From positions 1 to 64,000 of the forward strand of contig JAKSYS010000262.1 in assembly GCA_022925895.1 (NCBI GenBank): 64,000 nucleotides of DNA, read 5' to 3'. The position numbers and the translations under genes were made by a program. The notes beneath the pieces were generated by a model, which was given only the letters and a program-made list of their open reading frames with translations, did no database searches and was not told the origin of the DNA. Positions within the stretch are counted from its first letter, which is position 1; each line of letters starts with the position of its first letter. The stretch comes from Fragilaria crotonensis (lineage: Eukaryota > Bacillariophyta > Fragilariophyceae > Fragilariales > Fragilariaceae). Shown one piece after another: positions 1 to 64,000 of the stretch.

Positions 1-792
1 CAGGTACCGGTACGTTGGCTGTGACAGGCGTCGATACAATGAAGTGAATCGTGAATCACGGCCCTACAGTATGGATGAACTCCAACAGTGCGCAATAACT
101 GTATACGGTAAACGGAGTATACTTATCAGCAGGAGACAGGTGGATAATGTACTGTACCTGGTATATTGGATGATGGGGAGCTTGTTGAAGATTAACCACG
201 TACTCCAGGACCATGGTCTACGCTGGTACCTGGTACATACTGACAAACCTCATGCGACCTCAGTTGCTTGGTCTCGCCCTTATCGCCAAATTGAATGAAG
301 GATTCAATTATTGGAAGAGGAACAGAGCGTGAATTTTCCAGCAGGAACAGGAAAGGATATTGGAATCAAAATGTTGATTGACGATTCGTTTTGTGAAACG
401 GAGTCAATGACAGACAAGCACACAAAGTCAGTACCAGGTATATAATTTTGGGTCATCAATTGAGCCCGCCTTCATGCAGCGGGGTGCAATAGGTCTGAGG
501 TTGACAAAGGGATTGATTAGTTGGTCAGAATTAAAGGTCTAGATACCTTCACAACCTGCTTTGATACATTCAACCTCATTGGGGAGTACTACATGCTGCA
601 GGGCTCTTTTGTATGGCAGTACATTTGATGATCTTCTTGTGATGATCTTGGAGAAGTTGACATTAAAAATGCTCTCAGACCTCCACATTGTGACAAAAGG
701 TGGAATAGACAATTTGTTTATCAACAATAGTTGATGACCCGCTGGAGGAGTTTCCTTCCTTTGCTCTCATTGCAATGGATGGTCTGTCCCTT
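1..792. other. Left flank of element A, no recognisable gene
   Basis: Only short open frames occur here and none looks like a known protein. Positions 721-792 can be read on the plus strand as a short protein-like stretch (DDPLEEFPSFALIAMDGLS) that runs into the inverted repeat at 793. Element A may therefore have inserted into older, decayed coding DNA. No promoter or RNA gene was seen. Confidence 0.4.
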
Positions 793-816
793 CATCAGAA
801 GGTGGCGGGTTTTACA
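793..816 (+). repeat. Left terminal inverted repeat of element A
   Basis: This 24-bp sequence starts CATCAGAAGGTGGCGGG and ends TTTTACA. It is identical to the reverse complement of 12482-12505. Similarity stops abruptly on the inner side. Confidence 0.8.
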
Positions 817-1176
817 TGTAACAAATTTGGTACACTGTACCGTTTTTTTTTAAGTCCAGTACAGTGCGTAATATTTTTTTCCACTGTAATATGAAAAGGT
901 TTATGTAATATCTCTTGTATCTTGAATAATTTTTTTCGAGTCCAGTACAGCTGTGTACCCTCTTATGCTACACCCAGCATCCAATTGTTTCTGTACCTTG
1001 GCTGTTGATGTCATAACATCTAGCTGTGGCTGTAAAACCCCTTTTTGGTCGGGTGTAACATCCATTTACGGTTCCTCCTGTATACAGTATGACAGTAGTT
1101 CAATAGTACAGTGCTCCACTAGTGCAGTTCGCAATACATTCAACGTGTGCTTCTTCCAACCAGTGCTATTTATAAC

Positions 1177-2915
1177 TCAATGAAGGCATTGACTACCGGT
1201 TGATTCGTCCTCTCCAAACTCCGCTGTAAAGCAGTGTGATCTGTCTCTCTCTTGGCCCATTCGTGCTCCAGCACCTCCAGCCTGTTGCCTCAAACTGTTC
1301 ATCAGCCACTCCTCTGCGTCCCTTGCATTTCGACTCGCTCTGTCCTCTTGCACCATCTCACACAATACATTGAATTGGAGAATCCCCTCTTCAGTCCAGC
1401 CCCCATATTCGTTTGACGTACCACCATCTGTATGTGTGTATTTTCCCACAATTCGTTTAGACCTTGGGTCCCCCCTTCTGTCTTCGTGATACCTTTTGAT
1501 CCACTTGTCAATGTAGGCATCGTAAAGCAGCAACGCAAATGCCTCATCTGAAACTGTGACTACGGGTGCGCCCGTATCATTCGATTTTGCGTCAGATATG
1601 GTAGCCTTGTACTTCTTCCTGTTACCCCATCCCCTCTTTCCACACACATTCTAGTAGTTCACCTGCGAACCACAGGAAAGCCTCCTTTTCCTCCACCGTC
1701 TGCGACTGGCGAAGTTTGCAAAGAGTGTCCATCGAATATGGTGGGGGATCCACCTCATCCACATGATTCTTGATCTTCAGCAGTTTCATCGCTGCTTCTT
1801 GTGCCGACTGTTCGCATGTGCTCCGTTTTGTATTGAGGGCACCCATGACGATGGTCTTGTACATCCTCACAAACTGTGGTGTATCGGCGGGCTTCTCTTG
1901 ATCAAGAATCACCTGCATCACCATATCGAAGTATTCTTTACATGTTATGAACTTGACCCCCCGAAAGATAACTGTTTTCACCGTAACTTGTATGCGATCC
2001 CTGATGTTTTTCTTTGTCAATCCCTTGGCAGTTCTGTATGACATGGCGCGTCTCTCTTGTTGTTGTGGCAACAACGTCACTCCATGCTGTTCAATACCTC
2101 CACCTTCCTGCACTTCTTGCGCTGTCCATTCCTGCAAGCCATGGAGACCATTCCCATCTCCAACGAGTCGTTGTTGTCCGTCAACTTGCCTGCCTTGGAA
2201 TGGATTTGAGGAGCTCCTGTTGTCAGCTCTTTGTTGGCCTTCACGTCTGACGCCAACTAGGGTATAGTCTCTGGATGGAAGCCCTCCATTGTTGACAACG
2301 TTCGCACCAGTTCCAGCAACATTGCCGTCTCCAACCTTGCCGCCATGCCTGCTGTCAACAAGTGGATAGTCTCTGGATGGAAGCCCTCCATTGTTGACAA
2401 CGTTCGCACCAGTTCAGCAGCAACATTGCCGTTTCCAACCTGGCTGCCACGCCTGCTGTCAACAAGTGGATAGTCTCTGGATGGAACCCTCCATTGTTGA
2501 CAACGTTGGCACCAGTTCCAACATTCCCGTTTCCAACCTGGCTACCACGTCCGCCGCCAACAAATGGAAAGTCTCTGGATGGAGGCCGTCCATTGTCAAC
2601 AACGTTTGCAGGGGGTGCAACGTTCATATTTCCAATCTGGCCACAGGTTCTGTTGTCAACAATTGGAGGTCCTCTGGATGGACGCCCTCCATTGTTCCTT
2701 TGAAGTACAACAGGATCATCATCATCGTCTTCGTCACTTACGTTGCTGTCTCCCTCATGCGATGGCGTTTCGAGTTCTGCAGCTCTACTACTTCTTGTTG
2801 CTCTCGTGTTCACGTTGTTTCCTGCGCGTCTCTTCTTCTGCACACCACCAATCTGACCCACACACTCTGTTTCTGGGTCCTCGTTTTCTTCATTCTGCGT
2901 CCGTTTGTGCGCCAT
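1177..2915 (-). pseudogene. Element A accessory gene 1 (frameshifted, function unknown)
   Basis: The start is the ATG at 2915. The first part is polar and acidic (poly-Asp near residue 65), then enters Gly/Asn-rich repeats encoded by the ~100-bp tandem repeat at 2265-2698. The reading frame resumes at about 2137 with a soluble, helical-looking segment, and after another shift near 1640 continues to the stop at 1177 with the segment DEAFALLLYDAYIDKWIKRY. No catalytic motif is recognised. I have an impression that ORFs with this Asp-Glu-Ala-Phe-Ala-Leu-Leu-Leu signature are common next to diatom transposases, but cannot check that here. It may be a DNA-binding or structural partner. At least two frameshifts separate the pieces. 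Confidence 0.5.
2265..2698. repeat. ~100-bp tandem repeat inside accessory gene 1
   Basis: A unit beginning TAGTCTCTGGATGGAAGCCC recurs at about 2265, 2367, 2471, 2569 and 2667, with spacing of 98-104 bp. Copies drift and small indels change the reading frame, which explains why the encoded gene is broken across this stretch. Confidence 0.75.
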
Positions 2916-4443
2916 GGCTGCTTACCTAATGATTTGTGACAGTACTTGTCGTTTGGGGATTTTTTCCTTATGGCCGATGCAGTTTTGAGTTTGATGTATG
3001 AGCCTTCCCGCACGTATCTGGTTTTGAATGATAGTGTACGTAGTCATGTTACACAAGACCTCTTGTCTGTTTGTGTAATATTGTATTTATAATGTATACT
3101 ATTCTACTTTCTGTAACCTGCACACAGTAACTGTAGTATGTCGTGTTTGCAACATGGTTTTTAAATTGTTTTCTACAGTGCTGTACGTAGCATGTACTGT
3201 TGTGTTTTACGGATGTTCGTGTTTTGAATTGCTGCGCATGAAAGATAAACTACTCCCTGCATATGCATGCATGTAAATAATTTCTTTTATTGGCATTGTT
3301 CGTTAAGCACGCTTATATTGTTACATATGTACGATAAACGTGGTAAGGATGTCAGTATGTACCATGTAGGAAATCGAATTTTTATGTCCTAATAGTCCCA
3401 CTACATGATAATTTCATCTGTTGTACTGGCTGCTACATATAAAATGATGTATATAATTAATACAATTTGTTAACAAAGTGTATCCTGTGATGTCGCATTC
3501 GTTAAGTATGTGTATCTCTAAATTTTGGATGTCATGCAATTAAATCCCTTGTAGTAAATGTGTCATGTATATTAACATGCAAATGATGCACCCAATTTTC
3601 TGTTTCAGAATAAGTGGTTCAATGATATATTCTGTACTGCGTACTCCAATGTATAGAATCTTTCTAGTTCCGTCCTATGTATTCCATATATAAAAATTCA
3701 TTGCTGTCTGTAAAGTTTGTTGCCTTGCATGTAGCATTGTAGTAAATCAATTTCATGTTTATCCATTGTCGGAATGAAGTCCCACATCGCTGTCTTGTAC
3801 ATATCTTGTTTTCTTTGGTATGTCACGTACTGATTCCCACCGTGAATGTTTTCTCGCACGTTTCCCGCAAAGTTTGCGAATGCTCTCACATCATCACTCA
3901 AGCTCGTCGATCTTCAAAGCAATCGTTACCATCCAGTAACACTTGTTTTGTTGTATCTATTGTTGCCATAGTAACAAGTGCTTTGTTTTGTCCATTGTTG
4001 CCATCCAGTAACAGGAGATTGAATACGAGGTGATAGGTACTGACGAGGATTCCTCCTTTTGAATTTGTCCTGCGTAAGTGTTGCTGTTGATTTGTTACCA
4101 TCCAGTAACAATCTTTGGTTCTACACTCGCTCGATTCCAAAGTAGTGGCATTTCAACAAGCTTGTCACGCGGTTCGTTTGCTTATCTCGCCAGTGTCTGG
4201 GTGCTTTTGATTCGTTGCCATCCAGTGACGTTGATGTGTACCACAAGGGAAGAGATTGGCCACGAATCACATTCGTTGTATCAGGCTTTGATTTGCCATC
4301 CAGTAATGATCACTTGCTGTGCAATTGAATGGCAATCATGTTGAGATGTGTTGACATTTGTCTGCTTGCCTCAGAAGACATTCGTTGCCAGCATCCAGTA
4401 ACTATGTTTACCTGCACTGAACGACATTTTGTCACCAGGGATC
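2916..4443. other. Non-coding spacer between divergent genes of element A
   Basis: This AT-rich 1.5 kb has no credible coding frame. It separates two divergently transcribed genes and so should hold both promoters. Its right third (3925-4402) carries repeated dyad motifs annotated separately. Confidence 0.6.
3925..4402. promoter_or_regulatory. Repeated dyad motif upstream of the dioxygenase-like gene
   Basis: The motif GTTACCATCCAGTAAC (GTTAC..GTAAC dyad) occurs at 3925-3940, 3997-4012 (GTTGCC variant), 4094-4109, 4214-4229 (GTGAC variant), 4292-4306 (degenerate) and 4384-4402 (two-base insertion). A half-matching copy is at 3962-3975. The six sites end 42 bp before the start codon at 4444. 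Spacing is irregular (72-120 bp), so this is not a simple tandem array. They could be transposase or regulator binding sites; no direct evidence distinguishes these. Confidence 0.5.
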
Positions 4444-5793
4444 ATGTCCCCATCTCCTTCGGATAACAAACAACGAGGAAAACGCTCTTCACCACATCGG
4501 AAGAAGAGCGTGCAGCGAGACAGTGCGGGCGACCGCAAGCGCAAGGCCAAAGGTTACGAACGTGGTCGTGGTGGTGCGTCACGACGTCGCGTTTCTCGCG
4601 CTGTGTCTGATGTTGTGGGTGGCCGCACTTTCCCCGGTGAGCTCTCCCGTTACATCATTGCTGGGTACGAGAATCCCCGTGTCTTTCCTGGTGTGCCATC
4701 AACCAAAGCTGACGGCCAAACCAAGGGCAAACGCAAGGTCTTCGTCCCCAGTGGCGGACAAAGCGCCGCCGTTTTGTCCAAGGGCCTGCCGAGGCACGTA
4801 TCCGCTTTTTTCACCGAGCGCTTTCTTCATTACCAGAAGGCACCGGATACTGCTTCTCTGTCTGTCGGGGGTGGTGTCCCAATTGGTGCCAAAATCTGCA
4901 AGACAACATTTGTTGCGAGTATTCACTTCGCGTTCCTTGATACGTTCGGAATTGATAACGTTACTGTGGAGCGGTGTGAACACATGCGTAGCATCCAATA
5001 CAAGACAGGAGTTGTGGTCGTCCCTCATGCTCTTGAGGTTGTTGTTCTAGACGCGGTGTTGGCACGGTCCCGAACACACCCGAAGCCACTGTGTAACACA
5101 CGTGCCACTGTCGACAAGCCTGTCAAGATGCATGTCGATGACGATGCTCTCCTCGATCCATGTCATGATGCCCGTTTCAGGGCAATGGTGGTAGTCCTTC
5201 CCGAAGCTGGTGTGTTCTACTGCCACCGCGAACGCAGGAAAGCTTGCGTGGGAGTCTTGAACAGTCTCGTTCCACTGGACATGAACTGGCTTCGCACACT
5301 ACGGAATGGCACTTCTCTGAAGAGGTTTGCTAAGAATGGATACATCACCCATCTCTGGGAAGGTGATGGCAACTGCATCTGGAAGTGGAAGGTCAACCGT
5401 GGGTCGCCTGCGTTCAACATACCTTGCAGTCAGTTTGCATCTTTGTCTTCCGCTGTCTTCCGCTTCAACAAATGTCGAAACAAGACTGTGTATCACGTTC
5501 AACAATGTGCTGACGAAGATTCGCCACGTTTGCCGCCTGACTTTATTGATGGAGAGGATTGCTCTTCCACAATGAGTCGCAAAGAGCTTCGACGATTGTA
5601 CCTGATGAAGTACGTCCGGTCGCCATCGGCGCGAAGGGGTTGTCGTCATTATGTTGCGGGTTTCCTCCACCGCAACGTTGACCCAGAATCAGTTTGGGTC
5701 GTAGATGCAGAGATGGAGGGTGACGTTGATCTGAACGTATCAACACACATTCGCCACCCTAGTAAGGGAATGATTCGGTTGCCCTTTTCGTGA
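4444..5793 (+). CDS. Element A accessory gene 2, N-terminal part (conserved in element B)
   Basis: I chose the ATG at 4444. The first ~60 residues are basic and probably disordered. A conserved core follows, including VVGGRTFPGELSRYIIAGY, a Cys-His-Arg motif (FYCHRERR) near residue 262, and GCRHYVAGFLHRNVDP near residue 400. The gene at 62506-64000 shares these blocks: across 26 aligned residues around CHRERR, 18 are identical by eye. The frame closes at 5793, but the next frame upstream of 5798 reads FRDSMVQVRHL, which matches ARESVLQVRYL in the homologue. The two parts are therefore one gene split by a one-base shift near 5780. No known catalytic domain is recognised in this part. Confidence 0.7.
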   Translation: MSPSPSDNKQRGKRSSPHRKKSVQRDSAGDRKRKAKGYERGRGGASRRRVSRAVSDVVGGRTFPGELSRYIIAGYENPRVFPGVPSTKADGQTKGKRKVFVPSGGQSAAVLSKGLPRHVSAFFTERFLHYQKAPDTASLSVGGGVPIGAKICKTTFVASIHFAFLDTFGIDNVTVERCEHMRSIQYKTGVVVVPHALEVVVLDAVLARSRTHPKPLCNTRATVDKPVKMHVDDDALLDPCHDARFRAMVVVLPEAGVFYCHRERRKACVGVLNSLVPLDMNWLRTLRNGTSLKRFAKNGYITHLWEGDGNCIWKWKVNRGSPAFNIPCSQFASLSSAVFRFNKCRNKTVYHVQQCADEDSPRLPPDFIDGEDCSSTMSRKELRRLYLMKYVRSPSARRGCRHYVAGFLHRNVDPESVWVVDAEMEGDVDLNVSTHIRHPSKGMIRLPFS

Positions 5794-5797
5794 TTCC

Positions 5798-7396
5798 ATG
5801 GTTCAGGTCAGACACCTTCCTGCACTTGGTGAAAGAGCTGTTGCTCTGCTGCGAGACATACACCAGCACGCCACTTCTGTTCGTGAACGTCGAGGGTCGA
5901 GAGGCGTCAGGGGTAATCACGGTGACCACGGTTCCATGCATCCGGTTGGGACCCGAATAATGAAAGATCGCACTGGCCCCTGGAGAACTCGATATGTGAC
6001 ATCATCATCACCGCGCGAACAACCGGCTCTTGCAGCCTGTGTTCGTGCAGCCGCGCAGCTTGCATCGACGTCTGTTCCTGCTGTCCTCCGAGTGATGCAG
6101 GACATGGAGGATGATGCGGACCTCAAGCCTTCTGGGGGCATGGCCGGTGATGGAACATTTGCTCGCGTGGCGCACACGATGGATGTTAGTGTGGACTTGT
6201 CGAATGCATCACACTATGACGTCAACGACGCCTCGTCATCATTTGCCATCTGGACGGAAGATTCGCCGGGTACCACGAACAATTGGTATCTCGTGCTTCC
6301 TAATGTATTTGGTAAGAAAACTAGAACTGGTCGCACCTACAACGGTGTTGCGATTAAGTTGACTCATGGTACACTTATATCATGGGATGGCCGGCTGATC
6401 AGGCACGCCACATCAATAATGGACAGGAAGCCTGGTTGTCATGTTTATGGTACCTTTTTTGGTGCAAAGGCTGCAATTGTGCATTATGGCGTTCGACGTG
6501 CCATCGCTGCGGAGCGACAACGCCGTGCATACGCAATCGCGCGAAGAACTGTCGTGAACTGCGATGATGGTGAACCTATTGTTGATATAGTTCCGTCGCC
6601 TGAATCAAAAGTCATAGTGGACAGCGACGAAGTTGGCTTGGATGGCTCCGTATCTTCCGCGGAGTCGGACGATGACTCATGGATTGCTGCGTTGGGGAGT
6701 GACCTGCATCTCGGTGATGACGTACACTACGACGACGACGACAGCACTGGTGATGATGGCGTGCCTGTCCCTGATGCCGTTGAGGGCGATCAGGTCTCCG
6801 ATAGTGGAATTTGGGACGAGCCTGATATTGCTGCTTGGAGGATTCCTCGACGATCGTTACCCGAGGTGCTGGATGTTGATGATGACGAGGAGACTCATTC
6901 ATCGTCACGATTGGGATCACCATCCAAATCCGGCGATGCATCCTCTGCAAAGTTGCTAAAGTCGCATGTGATTGCATCCGCTTTTGACAAGCATCTACCC
7001 GACTTGATGGCTCCAGGTACGGAATGTTGGAGTTGTGTGGCATGCCACTCACTGTGCATCGACGGTGGTGAAACTTCTTGTCGAGATGCCCTACGCTTTG
7101 TCAGCTCAGGTGGCTCCTTCCGTGGGACTGTGGATGCAAGGAAACACGTCATCCGAATCAGATGCGCCTTACGAATCGACAGAGGTTGCAACCCTTCTGT
7201 CCATTCCTTGGAGGTTGGATGGATGGTAATCGGGTTATCATCCGTGTGTACTACCCGTACTTCCGTGTCAAAAATGGGGAGGTTGGCTCTCTTTGATGTC
7301 TTCCACCCACGAAAGGTCACTGCCTTCCATTTGATTCGCGCATCTCGTGTGTTGGTTCCATGTCCCCATCTCCAATTCCATTTCGAAGAGTTTTGA
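5798..7396 (+). CDS. Element A accessory gene 2, C-terminal part with 2OG-Fe(II) dioxygenase-like motif
   Basis: This continues the frame of 4444-5793 after an indel. Around residues 125-235 the protein reads like a double-stranded beta-helix dioxygenase. It has a candidate His-x-Asp in SHYDVNDAS, a conserved aromatic strand (NNWYLVLPNV), then LTHGTLISWDG and LIRHATS, which offer a distal His. Known families of this fold use Fe(II) and 2-oxoglutarate, and TET/JBP-like members oxidise thymine or 5-methylcytosine. Assignment to that branch is inference. Residues ~265-400 are strongly acidic. The last ~130 residues look less protein-like and may reflect another frameshift before 7360. Confidence 0.5.
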   Translation: MVQVRHLPALGERAVALLRDIHQHATSVRERRGSRGVRGNHGDHGSMHPVGTRIMKDRTGPWRTRYVTSSSPREQPALAACVRAAAQLASTSVPAVLRVMQDMEDDADLKPSGGMAGDGTFARVAHTMDVSVDLSNASHYDVNDASSSFAIWTEDSPGTTNNWYLVLPNVFGKKTRTGRTYNGVAIKLTHGTLISWDGRLIRHATSIMDRKPGCHVYGTFFGAKAAIVHYGVRRAIAAERQRRAYAIARRTVVNCDDGEPIVDIVPSPESKVIVDSDEVGLDGSVSSAESDDDSWIAALGSDLHLGDDVHYDDDDSTGDDGVPVPDAVEGDQVSDSGIWDEPDIAAWRIPRRSLPEVLDVDDDEETHSSSRLGSPSKSGDASSAKLLKSHVIASAFDKHLPDLMAPGTECWSCVACHSLCIDGGETSCRDALRFVSSGGSFRGTVDARKHVIRIRCALRIDRGCNPSVHSLEVGWMVIGLSSVCTTRTSVSKMGRLALFDVFHPRKVTAFHLIRASRVLVPCPHLQFHFEEF

Positions 7397-8544
7397 AACT
7401 GTTGTTGCCAGAGTTCACGACGCTGAGAACTGGCATTGAGTGGGTTGATGAGGTGGCATGGTATTACATTCAGATGGTCAGGTGCAAGACAAGGTATCCG
7501 CACATCCTCTCGACTCCACCGGCCTTTGACACATGGATTTATGTCAACGACTACGATTGGGCTGAGTTCAAAAAAGCAACCTCTCAGAATGTCATGGTTG
7601 GCGTTTCCGGTGATGGTGAGGCGGATGCACGGATGGTTGCCATCGAATCCCTCACTCCCGGAACTTACCTTGGTGGGAAATGCATCTACTTCCCATCAAT
7701 ACGCCTACGAGAAGTCTTCGCAAGGAAATTTGAACCCTTTCTGCCTGAGGGTGCTCGAACTCATGCTGGCCAAGAGGAAAGTGATGGCTCCCCTTCCCGC
7801 CCTCATGGAATTGACCATCAAAGTATCATGTACTACTTCATGGTCAAGGTGACTGACAGCGATGTTGCCCGTCGCGTGCTTCGGAAGTGCGATGACGATT
7901 CTGATGTGATGATGCGGGAGGCAAAAGGACACCATACCCAGTGGTCTCGCGAAGTAACCAGTGGGGCGCTGACGAGGTATGATGAGGACGACGCCTTCTT
8001 CTGTTATGACCTCAACTCTGAATTGTACGACCGGCGTTTCCGTTGGTATGAACTCAGTAGGTTTGAAGCGGCGAAGGAAGTAGGTCCAACATTCCAATGG
8101 AAATCTCTTCAGAACCTGTCCAAAGCCATGCATCAGATCTTGACTTTGCGAAAGCCCCCCGGTATTCTTGGACTCAATGGGGATAGACATGCAGCTTTGG
8201 CAACCGAAACGCTGATCGATGCCTTATGGGAAATGATGACATTCGGATTGAGGTTTGCGATGGTGTTCGACAGGATGTGTCTTTGTGTGAAAACAGCAAT
8301 TCCGTGCCTGGCTTCTCCACAGGTTGGTGATCTTCTGTCTGCATTCGCATCAATGATCATAACAAGGGTGCCAGAAGTCGTTCCACGGTATGCCTTCGCC
8401 TGCGATGATGCATTCCTACTCGAGTCATTGGCACTGAACATGGTGCGCATTCTTCCCTTCAGCAATAGAGATGCTTTCGGTATCCGGGACACGTTTGCCA
8501 GGATACTGCCAAGACATGGGGTGCGACGCAGGAATGGAAGGTAG
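7360..8544 (+). CDS. Element A accessory gene 3 or C-terminal extension of gene 2, unknown function
   Basis: A 394-residue frame begins with an ATG at 7360 and overlaps the end of the previous frame. It encodes a soluble mixed alpha/beta protein with many Trp/Tyr pairs (EVAWYYIQMV, YYFMVKV) and no recognised motif. It may be a separate gene or the true C-terminus of accessory gene 2 after a frameshift near 7300. It converges on the transposase, whose 3' end is about 60 bp away. Confidence 0.5.
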   Translation: MSPSPIPFRRVLKLLLPEFTTLRTGIEWVDEVAWYYIQMVRCKTRYPHILSTPPAFDTWIYVNDYDWAEFKKATSQNVMVGVSGDGEADARMVAIESLTPGTYLGGKCIYFPSIRLREVFARKFEPFLPEGARTHAGQEESDGSPSRPHGIDHQSIMYYFMVKVTDSDVARRVLRKCDDDSDVMMREAKGHHTQWSREVTSGALTRYDEDDAFFCYDLNSELYDRRFRWYELSRFEAAKEVGPTFQWKSLQNLSKAMHQILTLRKPPGILGLNGDRHAALATETLIDALWEMMTFGLRFAMVFDRMCLCVKTAIPCLASPQVGDLLSAFASMIITRVPEVVPRYAFACDDAFLLESLALNMVRILPFSNRDAFGIRDTFARILPRHGVRRRNGR

Positions 8545-8605
8545 TACATTTTATATGTTAGAGGACTACATGTTTTACATTCCAAACAAGACTTGTTCTG
8601 ATGTA

Positions 8606-11600
8606 CTATGTACGTTGTCGCTTATCTGTGCTTCCTCGATGTCTGGCAGATCCCGATTCTCCATCTCCAATGGTGGCTGCCTTTCTTCGCTTTCCAACGG
8701 TGGGCTTTCGGACAGCGCTCCTGGAACCCTTACGGCGACTGCGGCGGGAAGCTGGGGATGGGGGGATGATTCTGTCCGGTCTGTGGAAACCTTCATCTCC
8801 ACTTTCGTCAGACTCTGCTTTCTTCTTTGTTATGACAATTTCCTTGTACTTTTGGTGAATGAACAAGTCCCATGTTTTCGACCATTCTGTTTGGGGAAGC
8901 ATCATGAAGATGTACATTGCATTCGGGATGGTCTGACCATCATTTTTGTGGACACAATCACTGAAATTGTCGGCAACTGCGACAGTCGGTCTTTTTATCG
9001 AGTCGACGTGGACAAGATAGAGAATCGGTTGGAGGCTGTTGGGGATCAAATCTAGTTGAAACTTCCGGAATATAGATCGGTCTCCTCTTCATCTGCTTCC
9101 TCCTCGTCATCGCCAATTCCCGGGCTCCTCGTCATCACCATCGTCTTCACTGTCGTCACCATCGGGGAGTACCTCGTTGTATGATTCAATGACAGCATAG
9201 AAACCAGGGTTCGGGACAGAAACCTCTTGGCCAGAATGCGGAAGTCTTATCTTGGAGCCATTCGTTACGTTGCAAAGATTGAGGAATGCATGAATGCGTG
9301 CAGGGAAGAGATCATCGTATCCATGCCATTTAACGAGAGCGTAATCATACCAGGGTTTACCATGGTAACATGGATGAGCACGATAGATCTGACCATCCGC
9401 CGACTTGTACTCTGTATGACAATGAAGAATACGTGGAGTCGTATGGGGAAGTACATGTTTTGCAAGACATGTTGATACGTGAGATGTCAAGTGATAGTCC
9501 TCTGGAGGGATCGTCAGCCTTCTTCTTCTTTGATGCATTACGCTTACAGACGATGACACCGTCAACATCTTCTTCCAAAGAGAATCTCTTGCCCTGGAGC
9601 CGATGAGTGTCAAGCATCATTGTAGGGATTTGCAACATGTCAGTTATACTTGATGCGCACTTCCGGATTGCAAGATTTTCGATGTAACGCATGGCAGCCT
9701 GGAGTGTGAACGTTCCTTGACGCTTCTGGGTATTGCGTGTTGTATCCTTTGAGATGGTTATATGGGCAGACTCCGCATAACTACTGTTCATAACCTCAGG
9801 AACGCCAAAGTTGAGCATGTCTTCATCCATGTGCAAGACGAGATGTGTCTTGATTGTTGTATTTCCCATGGTGCCAGAAAGTCGGGGGGGCAACAAACTT
9901 CAGCGATCGCATTAGGGACGACACTGCAAGCCCAGATCGGGAGACAGATAGACGCGAGATGCGACTTTGCTTAAGCCATGCATGCCACTCGAGCAGGGAA
10001 CTCAGAAACATTTTCCAGTCCTCGACAAAATCAGGGTTGCTGAGGCTCATGTCCACTTCAACTTCTGGCGTGTGAGATGTGGGCTTTGACAACGTCGACT
10101 TCGATGAATGATGCTTCCTTCGCTTCGACATCTTTGATGACTTGAAGATTTCCGAAAAATGAGTAGTATGCAACGAGATGAGCATGATGAATATGCAACC
10201 GGCGTACTCATGTCCGGGGATGTTGGCACCCGATGTAAAACCTTTTGTGACCGTTGTCCTGGGAACAAGTCGATCACTTTGACGACCTACGCGCCGGTTG
10301 ATGTCCAACAGCAGATTATCATACCTCTTGCCGGACTCGGATGCCTTTCCAATTTGCTTGAAGAAGGAATCAAGAACATTCTTGAACCAACCCAGGAGGA
10401 TCAAGTGAAGGATCTCCCCCCTGGACATGCACCAAAAATCCCACGATTGTTGTGCGCACCAAACCTGACCGAATCGAATGCATTGATGAGATACTGTTGT
10501 GAATTGGACTTCAACTCCAAAAACTGTCTGTTGGTGACCATTTGGTTAACTGAATGGGGAGTGCGTTTTGCATATGCCCTGGCCTTTGAATAACCGGATT
10601 TATCGGTCGGACATACACACGAACGACAAAGCTGAGCAACAGTTGAGGTCCGAGATTGGTAATGACCACAAAGAGCATCATGGCCAACCGTATCTCCAAC
10701 TATGAATGGAACATAAAGGTGGAGGTGAACAGGGAAAGACTTTCCACGGTAATGGAGGTTCCATTTCAAACCAGATTCCTGGAGATCGAGATACCCAGAC
10801 TCGCGCAAAATGAAGTCAATTTGAATGTGATACTCATTCAGTCGGTAGCAGGCTTCCGAAACATGGGGAGGACCCACAATGGGGAGTGGTGTATTCGGTC
10901 TGACTTCTCCAGGTTGGAAAGCACGTTCCTTGACTGGAGTTGTATTGATGAAACCCAAAACTCTCATTGCTGCGGGGGTTTTGCGGATGTCGTGCGCCAT
11001 CAGTCCATACGATACGACGATGGGTTCAAGGCTTAGCTTTCCACCACCTCCGATGTCGCAGGTCGTCTTATCAATTGCAAGCACACATGGAAGTAACATA
11101 TCTTCAGCTTTCTTTATCAGCAAGTCATATGTTTTCAGGTAGGACTTGCCTGTGTTTATGTCACCCAAAACCGAACCACATGGTCGCGCAAAAGGGTTAA
11201 CATCCGGATTGTCAGGGTCGTGGAATATATAGTTCTCATCCCGGTTCAGCTCAGCACACGAAAGGAAAGAATTAAAAACAGCATGGGCACTGAAATAAAC
11301 GATATCAACCTGACAGTTTGAGTATGGGAGATAAAGCTGCTTCAACATGGGGGTCAAACCTTCAAAGTCAACACGATTTTGCAACTTGCCCATGACGGTC
11401 TTTCGAGAACAGATGGGGATGTCACGAAAGGAATGTCCTCGAGAGCATGATCTGACGGCCCACTTCATCACCTCATCAAACGCAATCATCGGACATCTCA
11501 ACCTCTTCAACGTCTGAAGTAGGTCCACCTGGACCTCCTCTTCCAAAGAAAACGTTTGGAGGTTGAGACCGTCATCATCATCTCTCTGGACCAAGCGTCA

Positions 11601-12132
11601 CCAAATGTATTGGGGAGAGTGAGTGGTGACTCAGAATTGTCGGAAAATGGTGCAACATTGCGGTCAGGATGGTCGGAAAATGGTGCAACATTGCTGACAG
11701 GATGTTCCGATTCCTCGTTGTTCAACGTGGCATCCACAGCATCGGTAAATAATTGCTCCCGGTCATCGTCCAGATCCGAAAAAGTGGAAGTACCAAAATC
11801 ATCATCATCGACGGGTAGACGTGCGTAGTTATTTGACTTCAAGGACGGAGGAGCATAAGAAACACCAGTTTGACAGGTGGAAACGGGAAGGTGATCGCCA
11901 CTCTGCTGTGCTTTGTTTGTCATTGTGCCGTCCAACAAACTTGGATCCCCTGAGTAATCCAAAGAACACTGAGGATGACTCGAGAAATGACGGAGAGTCC
12001 CATTGAACCAGCAACGACATATCGACCACAGGAGAGGCATTGCTCTTTCTCTGGTGATGACATTAGAACCTTTTTTGCATTTCTCTTGCGTGCATTCTCA
12101 ATCTTACGTGAAAGTTTTGCTTGGAGACTCAT
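8606..12132 (-). pseudogene. Tnp2/Plavaka-like transposase of element A (frameshifted)
   Basis: The ATG at 12132 begins a basic N-terminus followed by a Cys2-His-Cys finger (CLSCGRYV, then RHFSSHPQC after a shift). The central part (11594-10401) carries hallmarks of Tnp2-type RNase-H transposases: an acidic position in LAIDKTTCDIGG, the GDTVGHDALCGHY block, a Cys-x2-Cys pair (CRSCVCP) and GIFGACPGG. Later frames give ILHLILLGWFKN, RQSDRLVPRT, then HMDEDMLNFGVPEV and a C-terminal region with YRAHPCYHGKPWYDYALVKW. At least four frame changes lie between 12100 and 9050, all joining segments in the right order. Expected role: cut-and-paste movement of element A. Confidence 0.75.
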
Positions 12133-12481
12133 GATTGTTTAGACAACAAAATTAGAATGATGAGCTGAGATGGTGAAAAAGAGGAGCTGTCAAATCGATG
12201 AAATTAAGATATCGCGGGTCCACGGGACATGAAATGTGAAGAGTACTTGAGGGTAGGGACTCGGATGTCTTGATGAGTGCAAAAGAAACAGTGCACACGT
12301 AACATAGAAATGTACAGCGCACATCTGGATTTGTGCTACCGTACCAGGTGGTGTACCAAAAATGGAACACCAACTGGAAATGGGGTGTATTTACACTTAA
12401 ATATTACAGTGACATATAGGTATGTAGAATTTGTAACAAAATTGCCTACTTTTGTAAAATAATGTACTACGAAATACTAGG

Positions 12482-12505
12482 TGTAAAACCCGCCACCTTC
12501 TGATG
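12482..12505 (-). repeat. Right terminal inverted repeat of element A
   Basis: This is the exact reverse complement of 793-816. It lies about 350 bp upstream of the transposase start codon, as expected for the end of an autonomous element. Confidence 0.8.
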
Positions 12506-14037
12506 TTGGTGTGCTGGCAAGCAGCATCAAATTTTCAACTGGACAAAAGCATACCTTGCATTATCTCATGCCCAGAGTCCTGGAAGGTAAATTTGTTGAA
12601 TGCTTTAATCATAGCAATTGCAGAACCAAGTCATCATATATCTTGGCTGAGTCCCCAGGTCTTGTTAGAGTCGTGCTCACTTAGCTAAGCAATCCAGGGG
12701 ATGTATGCACTATTCAACAAGGAGCTGGTGGTTGTTGTTGACAGGGCTTGCCCAGAAAACTCTGATGAATCTTTTGAACAAGCAAATTGCGAAGAACATT
12801 ATGGATGTTTCCAGGTGTGATGCACTAGCATTCTTGTGGATCTCAATTGATGGACTTTTGCGCCTTTGAGGAAGCACAAGCAACGCTACAGAATTTGCAC
12901 AATATTCTGATCCTCCTCCTATCTTTGTTGATATTGTTCATTCAGAAAACAGGCGACCCTTGCTTCTAAGAGCAGACTTCCACAGGAATAGTGTGTTGGC
13001 AAGGGATTTGGAGTGTTGGGTGCACTTTGGTTACTGGTGTCGCAGCCCAACAACAAGGGGACTTGTTTTTTAACATAATTTCCGATGTTGTATGACCATT
13101 GAGAATATGATCATGAGAAGAAAACCATCTTTCAATGCATGGGTGCTTCTGAAATGTGTCATTTGTATGGTCATTTGCTACCCACCACCATCTAGTACCT
13201 TGTTGTTCCATTTATGTGGCTGCTACACCTGCATTGAATTTTATGGCAGACAATCAAATGAGTCATTATGAAGACAGAGTGGGATGACATGCTCCTAATG
13301 AATTACTTATTTAGACAGCATGCATTACACTTAGGTTAGGCTTCTTGAGAACAATGCAGGCATTGTTTTTTCCTGGTTTGTTTTTGTGCCATTCTCATCA
13401 AAAGTGCTGCAGTCATTCTACATGAGAAGTTTCCCTATGAAAACTCTCATTAAATCCCAACCTCATCTTCAATTTTATCTTCACCATATTCAGTCTCCTC
13501 CATTCATGATGAGATGATTCCTTGACAACCCAATCGGATCACTCAATAGTCAGAGTTCGCTATCCTCTACTAGAGCCATAGTATATGCATGTATATGATA
13601 CATACTCCGAGTAGAGAGAAAGTACAAGGTAGTACAAGACGTGTCTTGCTATGCATGCTGTGTACTACAAATGCGAAAAACGAGTGTATGATATAAACGC
13701 CGTACAAGTACTCCGAGTCTCCGAGTACGAGTAGACCTACCGGTAGTTGTACTGGACAATTGTACCTTGTACTCGGAGTAGTAGACTCGACACGTTGTTG
13801 ACGCAGCACTGTACGTGTTTTTACTGGAATACGTACGAGTACTTGATATTGTGACCTCAGTAAAACACGCGTTTGAAGTTTGAATACAAAAATCTGGTAC
13901 TAGATAGTAGTACTGAAATACATACCAGAACTGTACCAGGTACTGAGTACACGTTGTGTGACCGAACACCGAACTATCTGGTGTCAACTTGTCGCACGTT
14001 GATTGTTCATTTCCTTTACAAGTACCATCGATCCAAG
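12506..14037. other. Right flank of element A up to galactokinase
   Basis: About 1.5 kb without a recognisable gene. Short protein-like stretches with many stops occur on the plus strand from 12506 to 13500, suggesting very old coding DNA. From 13560 to 14000 the sequence becomes rich in GTACTCG/CGAGTAC-type palindromes and precedes galactokinase, so it probably includes its promoter. Confidence 0.4.
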
Positions 14038-15318
14038 ATGACCATTACCCTCAGCACTCTCTCACCCGCTCTCCAAAAGCTTGTTGAAGAAGCCAGAGGG
14101 CTGTATATCCAGAGCTACGGCTCCTCCACTGAGAACTTTTGCACCGTCGCTCCAGGGCGCGTCAATCTGATTGGTGAGCACACCGATTACACAGGTGGAT
14201 TTGTCTTGCCGTTAGCAATCGACTATGGTACTGTCGTCTACGGTAGTGGTGCAATTTTGGAGGATGAATCAACAAGAACAAGTGAGATTGAATTGATTAG
14301 CGGCATGGCTCCTGATAAGGTTGAGAAGTTGACGATTGACGCAGATACAAAACCTCCGTCTGCCGATGAACACAACCATTGGACCAATTACGTGTTGGGT
14401 GTGGTTGCACAGTATCTTCCTGACTTGCCTCAAGGTACCTCGTTTTCCATCAAGATTGCCATCGCTGGCAATGTACCTCTCGGGGGAGGCTTGAGCAGCA
14501 GTGCCTCGCTCGAAGTGGCAACCGCTCGCTTCCTAGAGTGTATCTTGGGCGATTCAGCGTTTTCCAGTTCCACGGACAAGCTCGCCGCAAAGGTTCGAGC
14601 CCTTCGTTGTCAGAAAGCTGAGAACGTATGGTGCCATTCGCCATGCGGGATCATGGATCAATATGTTAGCTCGGCAGCCTCGGAAGGCGCCTTGCTGCTT
14701 ATTGATTGCACCTCCTTTGAATACCAAAAAGTCCATGTCAAGCAGCCGTCGTCTGTCGTTTTGGTGGTGACCAATTCCAACGTCAAGCACGACATTGCGG
14801 GTGGTGAATATCCCGTGCGTGTGGCACAGTGTCGGACGGCAACGGTCGCCCTGCAAAAGTTCAACAAGGGCATATCCACCCTCCGCGATGCGACGTTGCA
14901 GGACGTGCTTGCTGCGGAAGCGGACATGGACGAGATCTCCTTCCGACGTGCGAGACATGTTGTGACGGAAAATGCAAGGACGCTGGCAGCAAAGGATGCC
15001 TTGGAGGATGGAGACTGGGCGCTGCTTGGAAGTCTCATGAATGACTCACACACGAGTATGCGCGATGATTATGAAGTAAGTTGCTCGGAGATAGATGTTC
15101 TTGTGGACTTGGCACAGACGTTCAGTGGTGTATACGGAAGTCGCTTGACTGGAGGCGGCTTCGGAGGGTGCACTGTCACCTTGGTGGAAAAGGAAAGCGC
15201 GCCCGCTTTGATGGAGTATTTGAAGAAGGAGTACAAGGTACAGACTGGCACTGATTGCGACTGTTTTGAGACTAGTCCTGGTCCCGGTGCCAGACTTCTT
15301 GGTACTGATAGTGTCTAA
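14038..15318 (+). CDS. Galactokinase (GHMP kinase)
   Basis: This enzyme phosphorylates D-galactose with ATP to galactose-1-phosphate, the entry step of the Leloir pathway. The 426-residue protein has the family's three motifs in order: GRVNLIGEHTDY near residue 40, the glycine-rich ATP loop VPLGGGLSSSASLE near residue 150, and LTGGGFGGCTV near residue 370. The sugar-site signature (GEHTDYTGGFVLP) is intact. I chose the ATG at 14038 because the start of the kinase fold follows within ~35 residues; the frame stays open upstream to 13873, but that extension is low-complexity. No intron and no frameshift. A plastid or other transit peptide is not evident, so it is probably cytosolic. Confidence 0.93.
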   Translation: MTITLSTLSPALQKLVEEARGLYIQSYGSSTENFCTVAPGRVNLIGEHTDYTGGFVLPLAIDYGTVVYGSGAILEDESTRTSEIELISGMAPDKVEKLTIDADTKPPSADEHNHWTNYVLGVVAQYLPDLPQGTSFSIKIAIAGNVPLGGGLSSSASLEVATARFLECILGDSAFSSSTDKLAAKVRALRCQKAENVWCHSPCGIMDQYVSSAASEGALLLIDCTSFEYQKVHVKQPSSVVLVVTNSNVKHDIAGGEYPVRVAQCRTATVALQKFNKGISTLRDATLQDVLAAEADMDEISFRRARHVVTENARTLAAKDALEDGDWALLGSLMNDSHTSMRDDYEVSCSEIDVLVDLAQTFSGVYGSRLTGGGFGGCTVTLVEKESAPALMEYLKKEYKVQTGTDCDCFETSPGPGARLLGTDSV

Positions 15319-60575: not shown

Positions 60576-61800
60576 GAGTTCCAATAATTACTATCGCTAG
60601 GACATCGATGAGTTTTCTACGTTCTCGTTCATGAATTTTATTCTGGATCATCAACTACATACGTCATACCACGAAGATTGAAATCTGACATATTGTTTGA
60701 AGTGTGTATCATGAAGATAATCCGTTCAGTGTGTCTCGGATCCGTACATGACGTTCAGTTATGGTTGTCGTTGGATTTTGTACGACAATTCTGAGCACGT
60801 GGCAAAATCCTGAAAGCAATGACATTCCCGGAACCCCTAAAAAAGTTCCGGTTATCAATCACACAACTCCACATGCAATTTTTTTAGCAAGTGTGTGTCA
60901 AAGGTTAAGAAGTCACATTTGGGTATACTACAGTACGTACTTTCATACAAGTGTGTTAACGTAATCCCAGGTTGTGTTTATGATATGGACATCCAATCAG
61001 CAACACTTTTTCATAACACATGATTCTACGACAAGTTTGTTCAATGTTTGGTCCCAGGTACTCCGAGTACTGTGGCTGGCATAGTATGCGTATACATCTA
61101 AGTACAGTATGTTCCACACTACTGTATTCCTATACTGCTAGTGGTGTACCAGTTTCTGCGCGCGGTTCTTCAAGCATATGTTCATAAATGAACCACTCGT
61201 GCTCGAGAAAGCTTAACGTCTAGATATTTCGATCTATTTAAAATCTATATGGAAGATAAAATTATTACATCTCGTACATTTTTATGCTCATTTGTCCTAT
61301 TGCCTCGCAAACAACATCATCCACCAATCATCATGCTCGAAAAAATACATGTGTGTTCTTATTCACACGACCTGTTTTTACTCTTGTACGCCTACTTGTA
61401 CGTTGTTCGAGTATGTGTACACGGTATTGTGGTGGGACTAGGTACTGCCAGCTGCGAAGTATGCGTACATGCAATATGCATTAACATATTAAGGTAACAC
61501 ATAACTTGTGCCTTCATGCTGAATCTTGTATCTTCTGTCATAAAAGGAATGCCCGGTAGTACCAGCAGAGTACGTTGTACCTGGTACCTTGTATGCATAC
61601 AAGGCACAGGTACCTGGTACATGGTACATGTACCTGGAACTATACAACAGGTTTTGCATCTCACACGCGCGTATGCATATAATTTGTAGTCCCACATGTG
61701 TATCTTGTGGGAATACAAACTTGATCCCCATTAATCCCTATAGTGCGCGCACGCACAGCACTGTTCGTTCTTTCTTTTTTCACTCCAGCAGGAAGTGATT
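60576..61800. other. Intergenic region between elements C and B
   Basis: No credible gene. It includes the perfect 18-bp palindrome CCTTGTATGCATACAAGG (61587-61604) inside a larger imperfect inverted repeat with GGTACCTGGTACA-type arms. Confidence 0.4.
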
Positions 61801-61855
61801 TTGCCTTGCTTTATGCTGCGAGGAACACACTTCGCAAGTTTCATTCATTTTCACT

Positions 61856-62395
61856 GTCAGTCTCCCATTAGGAGCTTGTGTGGATGGCAACTTTCCCCGT
61901 CAAAAGCAAGCTTCCACATCTAGTACTCCTACTGTCATACTCCCATTGTTTGGGGCTTTCATTGAAGTGCAAGTGACGATTGAAATTTCTCAGGATACCA
62001 CGCCTTACTTTGTTGAGCGAAGCAAACTGTCGACTGCTGCCAGAAACAAGAAGCATCATCTCGTGCTGTCAGACTCCCATTAGGAGCTTGCATGCTGATT
62101 GAAGTGCGACGTGCAAGTGATTGGAATAATTTTTCTCCCAGGAGGCGACCATCACAAGTGAAACTGTAGTAGCTGTGATTGGGTTTTTCAATTTTCACAG
62201 TCCTGAACCGACAATACAACACTCACCATCCAGTGGTGTTGTGGTGAATATTTGGATCTCCCTTTGGTTTCAAGGTTGGGCTAGAAACCTTGTCTGTCCC
62301 CCATCTCGGCTCACCATTAGTGGTCGCTTTGTGGTGACAATAACTCGGTTACCTTTTCTGCCAACACATATCGGCTCACCATTAGTGGTCGCTTT
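61856..62395. repeat. Direct repeats upstream of the element B gene
   Basis: GTCAGnCTCCCATTAGGAGC (plus TTG) occurs at 61856-61878 and 62068-62090, 212 bp apart. A 25-bp word starting TCGGCTCACCATTAGTGGTC occurs exactly at 62306-62330 and 62371-62395. CATTAG recurs in both families. They lie 110-650 bp before the start codon and may be binding sites or parts of a diverged tandem repeat. Confidence 0.7.
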
Positions 62396-62505
62396 TGTGT
62401 TTGGATTAGGTTGTCTACCCAACAAATCTTGAAGCATTGTACGCTGCCTTATTGCTGTGGAAATTCCTTTTGCAGCCTGTTTCCATTTCCTCGTCCATTG
62501 TTATC

Positions 62506-64000
62506 ATGACTCCGGAATGTAGTGGGAAATCTCTCCATTCTCCTGGCAAATGCCGTGGAAGCAAGAAGCGGAAGGCCCGTGGGGTTGGTGAGAAGGATGC
62601 CCCCCGAGTACAAGCTCCTTGGAGAGGAAGAGAACAACCTTTGCCCCCAGCTAGTAGTACTACTTGCGCTGAATTGCCACCAGTTATCCTTCCTCCGCTT
62701 CTTAAAGTACCAAATGTTGGTGGCAACCGTACTTTCCCAAGTGACAATGCACGACATCTGATTGCTGGAATGGCCAATCCTCGCATTTTCAACAATGCTA
62801 TTGGAGTGCTTGATGAAAGTACTATCCCTTCTCGTAATGATCATGGCCAGAAGAAGAACAAGAAGGTGCAAGGCGATTCTGTTCATCAACGCACATGCTT
62901 CCTGCCAAGTAAAAATCAGGTTGCTGCTACAATATCAAAGTGTCTTCCAAAGCAGGATGCTGCCCAATTTGAGGTACTGTTCAAAGGCTTTCAATGCAAC
63001 AACAAGAAGAATATCCCAACTGAGTTGTCAAACGCTGGTGTTGATCCCTTTGCAAGGGTTGTCAATACTCGAGTCGTGACCATACTCTGGTCTCTGCAGC
63101 GGCTGTATGGAACTGACAATGTTGCGATAACAATGTGTCCCCACATGAATAGTGATCACTCCAAGTTGAAGATTCTTAGTCGACGTGATTACTTGGAAAT
63201 CATCTTGATGGATTGCGTGTTGACACGCACTACGAGGCCACCCCGAAAAGTCACCGGCCGTGAGGAAGTTGATACTCCTGTCAAGTTTCAAGTAGGTGAT
63301 GCACAATTATTGGATACTAAATTTGACAAACAATTTCGCTCCCTTGTTGTCGTTGCTCCTGAGGCTGCAGTGTATTATTGTCACCGGGAGCGTCGGAACG
63401 AGTCCGTTGGCAAATGCAATAGACATATTGCCATGGATACATCATGGTTGCGTGTCATCAAGAATGGCAATCGCAGCTCTCGATTTGCTCTTGGTGGTTA
63501 TGTTGCACGCTTGTGGCCAGGCAAGGATGATTTCTTCTGGAAGTTTAAGATATGCCGCGGTGAATCTAACTTTCAACTTCCACCTCTTCCCCCTGTGAGG
63601 GACCGCCTGGATTGGAATTCCCAACGCTGTCGCAAGATTCTGCATGCAAGACAGTGTCCTGATGAGCTGGGCCCAAGGTTGCCAGCTGATAACATTGAAG
63701 GGGAAGACTTTAATAGCAGAATGTTGCGCGACTCCCTTCGCAGGGCGTATCGTGCGGCATTGCTGGAGTCCACTTCTCGAAAGATGGGTTGTCGTCACTA
63801 TTGCCCGGGTTTTCTCCATCGGCACATTGATCCCCAGTTCTCATTGGTGATCAATCCAATGGATGGTGATTTTGATGTGCACATTTCCGTTCAGATCAGC
63901 CGCCAAGGTATGGATGCTGACGGTTGCAACACGGCTGGGAGGAAACAAATGCACCACGTCGCACTTGCAAGGGAATCAGTGCTCCAGGTGAGGTACCTGC
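62506..64000 (+). CDS. Element B accessory gene (partial, homologue of the element A gene)
   Basis: The frame opens at ATG 62506 and has no stop to the window end, giving 498 codons. Blocks shared with 4444-5793 are VGGNRTFPSDNARHLIAG, VVVAPEAAVYYCHRERR, WLRVIKNGNRSSRFALGGYV, CPDELGPRLPADNIEGEDF and MGCRHYCPGFLHRHIDP. The last residues (ARESVLQVRYL) match the frame just before 5798, showing that both halves of the element A gene are one gene. The N-terminus is basic and Pro-rich. The dioxygenase-like part, if conserved, would lie beyond 64000. Function unknown. Confidence 0.75.
   Translation, partial: MTPECSGKSLHSPGKCRGSKKRKARGVGEKDAPRVQAPWRGREQPLPPASSTTCAELPPVILPPLLKVPNVGGNRTFPSDNARHLIAGMANPRIFNNAIGVLDESTIPSRNDHGQKKNKKVQGDSVHQRTCFLPSKNQVAATISKCLPKQDAAQFEVLFKGFQCNNKKNIPTELSNAGVDPFARVVNTRVVTILWSLQRLYGTDNVAITMCPHMNSDHSKLKILSRRDYLEIILMDCVLTRTTRPPRKVTGREEVDTPVKFQVGDAQLLDTKFDKQFRSLVVVAPEAAVYYCHRERRNESVGKCNRHIAMDTSWLRVIKNGNRSSRFALGGYVARLWPGKDDFFWKFKICRGESNFQLPPLPPVRDRLDWNSQRCRKILHARQCPDELGPRLPADNIEGEDFNSRMLRDSLRRAYRAALLESTSRKMGCRHYCPGFLHRHIDPQFSLVINPMDGDFDVHISVQISRQGMDADGCNTAGRKQMHHVALARESVLQVRYL

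Follow-up and report, generated by a model that had tools for sequence, protein, structure and literature searches.

A Plavaka-type transposon of the diatom Fragilaria crotonensis with a gene for a predicted TET/JBP-like dioxygenase

TET/JBP genes are known as cargo of the Plavaka and KDZ (Kyakuja, Dileera, Zisupton) transposons of fungi, in which the TET gene has also moved between transposon types (Kojima 2025, PMC12730594). In that account all TET+ Plavaka families fall into PlavakaB, which is marked by CATCA..TGATG termini and by target site duplications (TSDs) of 2 or 3 bp (PMC12730594). Here we describe an 11,713-bp element that lies near the start of a 64,000-nucleotide stretch of DNA (the window, part of contig C183) from the diatom Fragilaria crotonensis. 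We think it fairly probable that this element belongs to the Plavaka lineage of cut-and-paste DNA transposons, has ends of PlavakaB type and carries a divergent TET/JBP-type Fe(II) dioxygenase and an accessory gene beside its transposase, and that the predicted enzyme modifies (methyl)cytosine as a defence against silencing.

The original prediction, made from the letters of the window, was of an element enclosed by exact 24-bp inverted repeats, and both the repeats (Table 1) and their recurrence at the ends of other copies were confirmed. In the host genome (62.1 Mb in 881 contigs) 27 match rows were obtained with the left 308 bases and 18 with the right 306, a few of the rows lying together on a contig, with identities of 98-100% on C466, C124 and C265 and of 70-86% on other contigs. 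That the host is a diatom is borne out by 19 Silic_transp matches in this genome, 18 of which exceed the Pfam cut-off. Eleven copy starts were read, that of the window copy included; nine of these are CATCAGAAGGTGGCGGGTTTTACA (CATCAG) and two, on C122 and C254, have CATCGG. An end of the same type, CATCAGAA, belongs to the element on C829. C183, C466 and C265 share flanks and were counted as one insertion, as were C209 and C111. Independent insertion of the first three was rejected because their right flanks are identical at 100 of 100 bases; their left flanks can be aligned by BLAST but, ungapped, are equal at only 60-61 of 100 bases. On this count eight of nine distinct insertion sites, that of C829 included, have identical 2-bp flanks (TT, TA, TT, CT, TA, AA, TA and TA), the sole odd site being that of C122 (CA/TA). 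A chance inverted repeat was also rejected, as the ends recur with 2-bp TSDs. Two shorter forms were seen among the copies. A 6.7-kb copy with PlavakaB-type ends (C669:20561-27443) has an open reading frame (ORF) for a DDE_Tnp_4 (Harbinger-type) transposase in place of the three genes, and represents either a nested insertion or an element sharing PlavakaB-type ends. The 1.9-kb copies on C209 and C111, apparently a single site on two contigs, have matching ends around an interior without a match and resemble miniature inverted-repeat transposable elements.

The Tnp2/Plavaka-like transposase that had been predicted was also found, as a Plavaka-type gene on the minus strand. Against the C832 protein the window copy shows 90% identity at 10416-11588 and 80% at 9501-9902, and other pieces of it match C122 and C832. 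The Pfam Plavaka profile matches a window piece with an E-value of 1.5e-4 and 21.6 bits, which is below the cut-off of 26.3; in single relatives it reaches 26.2 bits (C254) and 19.7 bits (C829), and the C832 protein is unlisted. Across the genome the Plavaka hidden Markov model (HMM) has 91 matches (92 candidates), and a search with the C832 transposase led to 13 loci whose Plavaka match is above the cut-off. The profile places the transposase in Plavaka at family level only, and the PlavakaB-type placement rests on the CATCA..TGATG ends and 2-bp TSD together with this transposase. Four aligned transposases have AIDKT, GDTxGHD and LCRxC in common, with CRxC invariant in all four; inspection of the same four proteins by eye showed no clear H(3-4)H. 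For one transposase pair the ratio of non-synonymous to synonymous substitution (dN/dS, Nei-Gojobori) was 0.12.

The long plus-strand gene of the element proved to be larger than was originally claimed, reaching from about 4429 to 8541, and is broken into three frames here. In the C122 copy it is a single frame of 1426 aa, and tblastn places residues 34-447 of that protein at 4531-5763 of the window, residues 455-992 at 5786-7393 and residues 906-1369 at 7138-8541, the last with one TGA. The gene is also a single frame, of 1291 aa, in the C829 element, where the neighbouring transposase (1166 aa) and third gene (541 aa) are open as well. A tblastn search of the genome with the C122 protein, in which 33 of 416 candidates were scored, yielded 43 match rows, and these merge into at least 30 loci. 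From these, 24 gene loci (L016-L039) were fetched and 20 were aligned with the C122 and C466 copies to give 22 rows, leaving out L024, L026 and L039, which are broken, and L038, a near-copy of L028. Removal of the near-copies L033 and L034 produced the 20 rows of alignment A1, which still includes several close copies and in which L016, L025 and L035 depart from the shared frame towards their ends. The gene is under purifying selection, with dN/dS of 0.11-0.25 in six gene pairs (Nei-Gojobori), ratios that are rough since several dS values are near saturation. The proposal that the plus-strand ORFs are noise was rejected on the 1426-aa frame of C122 and on these ratios. A conserved C-terminal region (residues 860-1385 of protein P0001, L010:6654-8231) occurs in some of the genes linked to Plavaka and is lacking in the shorter genes of C659 type; it has no Pfam match.

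Kinship of the predicted protein with TET/JBP enzymes is suggested by its modelled fold. The original prediction of a divergent dioxygenase-like gene of possible TET/JBP kinship had called for structure prediction in search of a double-stranded beta-helix (DSBH), and a TET/JBP match was obtained with both Foldseek and VIA-align. The AlphaFold2 model of P0001 residues 61-760, made with 20 alignment rows, has a predicted TM-score (pTM) of 0.80 and a mean predicted local distance difference test score (pLDDT) of 70.8 (62-66 in the other four models). Against the PDB, Foldseek placed CMD1 at ranks 1-5 (best E 1.6e-7) and TET2 at ranks 6-7 (4.7e-6), followed by FTO (6.5e-4). VIA-align filled its first 14 ranks with NgTET1, TET2, CMD1 and CcTET (Z 11.6-9.2), the values being Z 11.6 with a root-mean-square deviation (rmsd) of 3.8 over 233 aligned residues for NgTET1, Z 10.4 (rmsd 4.9, 287 aligned) for TET2, Z 10.1 (rmsd 4.2, 275 aligned) for CMD1 and Z 9.7 (rmsd 4.2, 265 aligned) for CcTET, with FTO next at Z 9.0 (rmsd 5.9, 212 aligned); rows less than 1 Z apart are tied, and the order inside TET/JBP means little. 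In a viral structure library the fourth and fifth ranks were named JBP1/TET and the first three were unnamed. The gene product is thus predicted to be a DSBH closest to TET/JBP structures, with a modest lead over FTO and AlkB. An N-terminal domain with CHRERR and GCRHY blocks had been proposed as well; the blocks are conserved (Table 1) but need not form a separate domain, since the NgTET1 match, going by its first and last residues, covers model residues 134 to 637, a range that includes both. No relative was confirmed among 17 pattern stretches in viral_contigs and 12 in genome_contigs, collections of viruses and prokaryotes that have little bearing on eukaryotes. Ten proteins of phage Nigel gave no Tet_JBP match at E 0.01.

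The catalytic residues of CMD1, the 5-glyceryl-methylcytosine (5gmC) synthase of Chlamydomonas, have been described as the Fe ligands His345, Asp347 and His397, the base contact Asp350 (Asp234 in NgTET1, Asn1387 in TET2) and the essential Trp358, which stands in place of an Arg that binds 2-oxoglutarate (2OG); paired Arg residues bind 2OG in TET enzymes and are not used by CMD1 for 2OG (PMC7854593). The His-x-Asp strand and distal His candidate of the original prediction are both present in the diatom protein. H546, D548, D551, H610 and T612 (model numbering, which is P0001 minus 60) are the same in all 20 rows of A1 and include a putative HxD...H Fe(II) triad; this and the other pairings with known enzymes were made by hand on spacing and order. 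The residue at +13 of the first His, W559, is Trp in 19 of the 20 rows and Phe in one, and in TET2 it is Val (counted on PDB letters). The distal segments align without gaps, TET2 HGSILIECAKRELHATT (PDB letters) against HGVLISWDGRLIRHCTS in several diatom rows. The HxE of PE-type fungal TET was not found, all 20 rows having HxD.

The partners of the gene were surveyed over 30 loci, five of which (C770, C30, C594, C487 and C117) lie outside the partner examination. Transposases convergent with the gene were found at 23 of the 30, and two more loci face a helicase ORF. The partner is a Plavaka transposase at 17 loci (C122, C466, C124, C285, C609, C829, C265, C1, the 793-12505 element of C183, C160, C134, C578, C263, C321, C273, C153 and C624, the last by a weak HMM hit only) and a remote Plavaka-like transposase at two (C659 and C121), that of C659 being 21-23% identical to protein P0002. 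Transposases like those of Mutator-like elements (MULEs) accompany it at four loci (C183 at 62638, C63, C776 and C873) and form two lineages that are 27-29% identical; three of the four were scanned against Pfam, with all matches below the cut-offs. The helicase loci, C490 and C754, are near-copies with a 1324-aa ORF, in which DEAD and Helicase_C domains were identified by a scan of C490, and which is perhaps part of the same element as the TET-like gene. Related helicase pieces are also found close to the Plavaka copy on C273, and on C30 a Plavaka match lies about 15 kb from the gene. The catalytic core was placed in a maximum likelihood tree of 22 rows, 20 of them different, in which well-supported branches require at least two changes to MULE, and none of the 200 bootstrap trees contains a single MULE group. 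On this tree the gene must have become linked to MULEs on two or more separate occasions, and has thus moved between transposon types. The helicase pair is sister to C770, the Plavaka label of which is taken from its near-copy C321, and four of the six rows counted as remote Plavaka owe that label to their closeness to C659.

One of the MULE-like cases begins in the window itself. MULEs are recognised by a MULE transposase, long terminal inverted repeats and a TSD of 8-10 bp. The second element (C183:61208-68562) has 51-nt inverted ends that are 96% identical, a TET-like gene matched with E 3.6e-166 and a transposase that is weakly MULE/ZSWIM-like, below Pfam cut-offs; no TSD was seen at its ends. 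Its end recurs in 40 match rows in the genome, and a 5.5-kb relative on C80 retains a gene remnant corresponding to P0001 residues 556-709 only.

Table 1. Features of the window, in window coordinates.
Feature	Position	Strand	Basis
Left TSD (TT)	791..792		equals 12506-12507; the same 2 bp on both sides at 8 of 9 separate sites
Left terminal inverted repeat, CATCAGAAGGTGGCGGGTTTTACA	793..816	+	exact inverted repeat; recurs at copy ends
Third gene, several broken frames in window copy; conserved core about 1273-2053	1177..2915	-	homologous to 541-aa frame of C829
Five tandem copies of a 92-nt repeat within the third gene	2215..2709		repeat search
TET/JBP-like dioxygenase gene (predicted), broken: frames 4429-5793, 5798-7396, 7297-8541	4429..8541	+	tblastn, ORFs
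CHRERR block	5221..5238	+	near-invariant in A1
GCRHY block	5638..5652	+	RHY invariant in 20 A1 rows
HYDVND, with H-x-D as putative Fe-ligand motif and an Asp at +5 from its His	6212..6229	+	H, D, N, D invariant in 20/20
AIWTE, Trp at +13 of first His, CMD1 Trp358 spacing	6245..6259	+	W in 19/20 rows, F in 1/20
RHATS, putative distal Fe-ligand His with Thr at +2	6401..6415	+	H, T invariant in 20/20
Plavaka-type transposase gene, several broken frames in window copy	8606..12097	-	similarity to C832, C122; Pfam Plavaka E 1.5e-4
Right terminal inverted repeat	12482..12505	-	exact inverted repeat; recurs at copy ends
Right TSD (TT)	12506..12507		equals left flank
Second element, left part (to C183:68562), MULE-like, with TET-like gene at C183:62638-64860	61208..64000	+	inverted ends; gene match

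The third gene, which formed no part of the original prediction, is 56-64% identical to the 541-aa open frame of the C829 element and is conserved in C122, C153, C832 and C254. About 1.4 kb to the right of the element there is a 481-aa open frame (13873-15318) that is galactokinase-like by eye.

The element would on our reading work with three genes, a transposase and a small accessory gene on the minus strand and a TET/JBP-type Fe(II) dioxygenase on the plus strand. The predicted dioxygenase would flip (methyl)cytosine out of the element DNA and oxidise or otherwise modify the base, and 5-methylcytosine (5mC) marks set by the host would thereby be undone or disguised, allowing the element genes to be expressed and the ends to be cut. 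Modification of methylated element DNA as an escape from silencing is the most likely role of the enzyme; C5-methyltransferase genes have 13 matches in the host genome. Such an anti-silencing enzyme would benefit any transposon that carried it, which would explain the repeated exchange of the gene. Several results weigh against this account. The Tet_JBP HMM (PF12851) matched nothing in the genome at E 1, there was no Tet_JBP among the Pfam matches of the 20 A1 members and no informative Pfam match for the gene, PHROGs gave no informative match, a search of the PDB by sequence gave nothing significant, and hhalign against a TET2 fragment gave a non-significant probability of 0.02%, although its alignment had the distal-His segment in register. 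The name TET/JBP-like is used here because of this lack of a sequence match to the Tet_JBP profile. The Foldseek hits have low TM-scores (by query 0.25-0.26 for CMD1 and the better of the TET2 rows, by target 0.22-0.38 for CMD1 and TET2; rmsd 11-14), FTO trails CcTET and CMD1 by no more than about 1 Z, and the C-terminal third is without a predicted fold, AlphaFold giving only a poor model of P0001 residues 860-1385 (pLDDT 42.5, pTM 0.42; 10 rows, several partial). No conserved counterpart of the 2OG Arg of TET2 and NgTET1 was found in the last strand in a hand alignment of the 20 rows; at the position aligned with TET2 Arg1896, 19 rows have H, N, D or Q and one has a gap, and several invariant Arg residues in these rows are candidates for the other 2OG Arg. 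The window copy is decayed, with the gene broken, and any activity of the predicted enzyme would therefore rest with its relatives. Finally, diatoms have 5mC, while a review describes 5-hydroxymethylcytosine (5hmC) as absent from them and TET as possibly missing, and also cites TET homologues in Phaeodactylum tricornutum (PMC9033121). In view of this tension, an unusual product like that of CMD1 deserves consideration.

The Trp at the spacing of CMD1 Trp358 and the lack of a conserved 2OG Arg are a hint of CMD1-like chemistry, in which, on the same fold, ascorbate would replace 2-oxoglutarate and a group such as glyceryl would be added to 5mC, hiding it from its readers. This possibility, to which we give about one chance in four, draws on the match of Trp at +13 in 19 of 20 rows to an essential residue, on Asp at +5 of the first His and Thr two residues after the distal one (matching CMD1 Asp350 and Thr399, the Thr being shared with TET2), on the last strand without a conserved Arg, on the place of CMD1 at the top of the Foldseek list and on the reported absence of 5hmC in diatoms (PMC9033121). 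Its basis is spacing, however, and not superposed coordinates; counterparts of CMD1 Arg244, His249 and Arg418 were not identified, and in VIA-align it is NgTET1 that comes first, tied with CMD1 within about 1.5 Z. With a similarly tentative standing, the genes may form a new transposon-borne TET/JBP-like branch whose CMD1-like, possibly ascorbate-dependent, hypermodification takes the place of oxidation with 2-oxoglutarate and masks methylcytosine, and which in this diatom has passed between Plavaka, MULE-like and possibly helicase-bearing elements as an anti-silencing tool that they share. If so, it would parallel the TET+ transposons of fungi and would predict a so far unseen modified base concentrated on the elements. 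Rather less probably, the enzyme could mark the DNA of its own element as a signal, for recognition of the ends by the transposase or accessory protein or for coordination of replication with transposition, rather than for escape from silencing. The gene is kept beside transposases under selection, and the third conserved gene could supply a reader or binding partner; the TET-like gene also stands beside very different transposases and ends (Plavaka and MULE-like), however, which a general benefit explains better than a signal matched to particular ends. A demethylase of FTO/AlkB type, acting on N6-methyladenine (6mA) or RNA and so protecting element DNA or transcripts, is, at slightly lower odds again, unlikely. 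FTO and AlkB-family structures do come next in both fold searches (E 6.5e-4; Z 9.0-8.1), and CcTET acts on 6mA too (PMC12730594), but TET/JBP entries occupy the first 14 ranks of VIA-align and the first seven of Foldseek, and Asp at +5 fits the cytosine contact of TET and CMD1. That the protein is a catalytically dead DSBH serving as a DNA-binding or structural subunit is very improbable: the 2OG-binding Arg is not conserved, as such a loss would have it, but the three putative Fe ligands and the Asp at +5 are invariant in 20 of 20 rows, and dN/dS is 0.11-0.25.

Escape from silencing by a transposon-borne, TET/JBP-like enzyme is the reading that we compare with described systems. The closest of these are the TET+ PlavakaB elements of Agaricales, with which the diatom element shares a Plavaka-type transposase, CATCA..TGATG ends, a 2-bp TSD, TET/JBP-type cargo and the occurrence of the cargo gene on other transposon types as well (PMC12730594). 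It differs from them in its diatom host, in having HxD as against the HxE of the PE type that is listed for fungal Plavaka (PMC12730594), and, on the diatom side, in the miss by the Tet_JBP HMM, the MULE-like partners, the third conserved gene and the long C-terminal part of some copies, the fungal proteins being compared by description and not by sequence. The fungal KDZ TET+ transposons likewise have TET/JBP cargo, but differ in transposase family and, for Zisupton, in a TSD of 8 bp against 2 bp in the diatom element (PMC12730594). NgTET1, human TET2 and CcTET resemble the diatom protein in fold (Z 11.6, 10.4 and 9.7) and in HxD...H, but have the paired 2-oxoglutarate Arg, which is without an evident conserved counterpart in its last strand. 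CMD1 is like it as the best Foldseek hit and in HxD with Asp at +5, Trp at +13 and Thr at +2 of the distal His, and unlike it in sequence (about 15% identity over 450 columns); to our knowledge CMD1 is not known as transposon cargo. TET genes on transposons of diatoms or other algae were not found among the papers listed by the literature searches, with subscription literature mostly outside their reach. The present case bears on the puzzle of diatoms that have 5mC while 5hmC is said to be absent and TET perhaps missing (PMC9033121). It shows in a diatom the pattern known from fungi, that of a TET-like gene common to several transposon types, and, with a protein so divergent that the sequence libraries used miss it, it suggests that base modification against silencing is a recurrent strategy of eukaryotic transposons.

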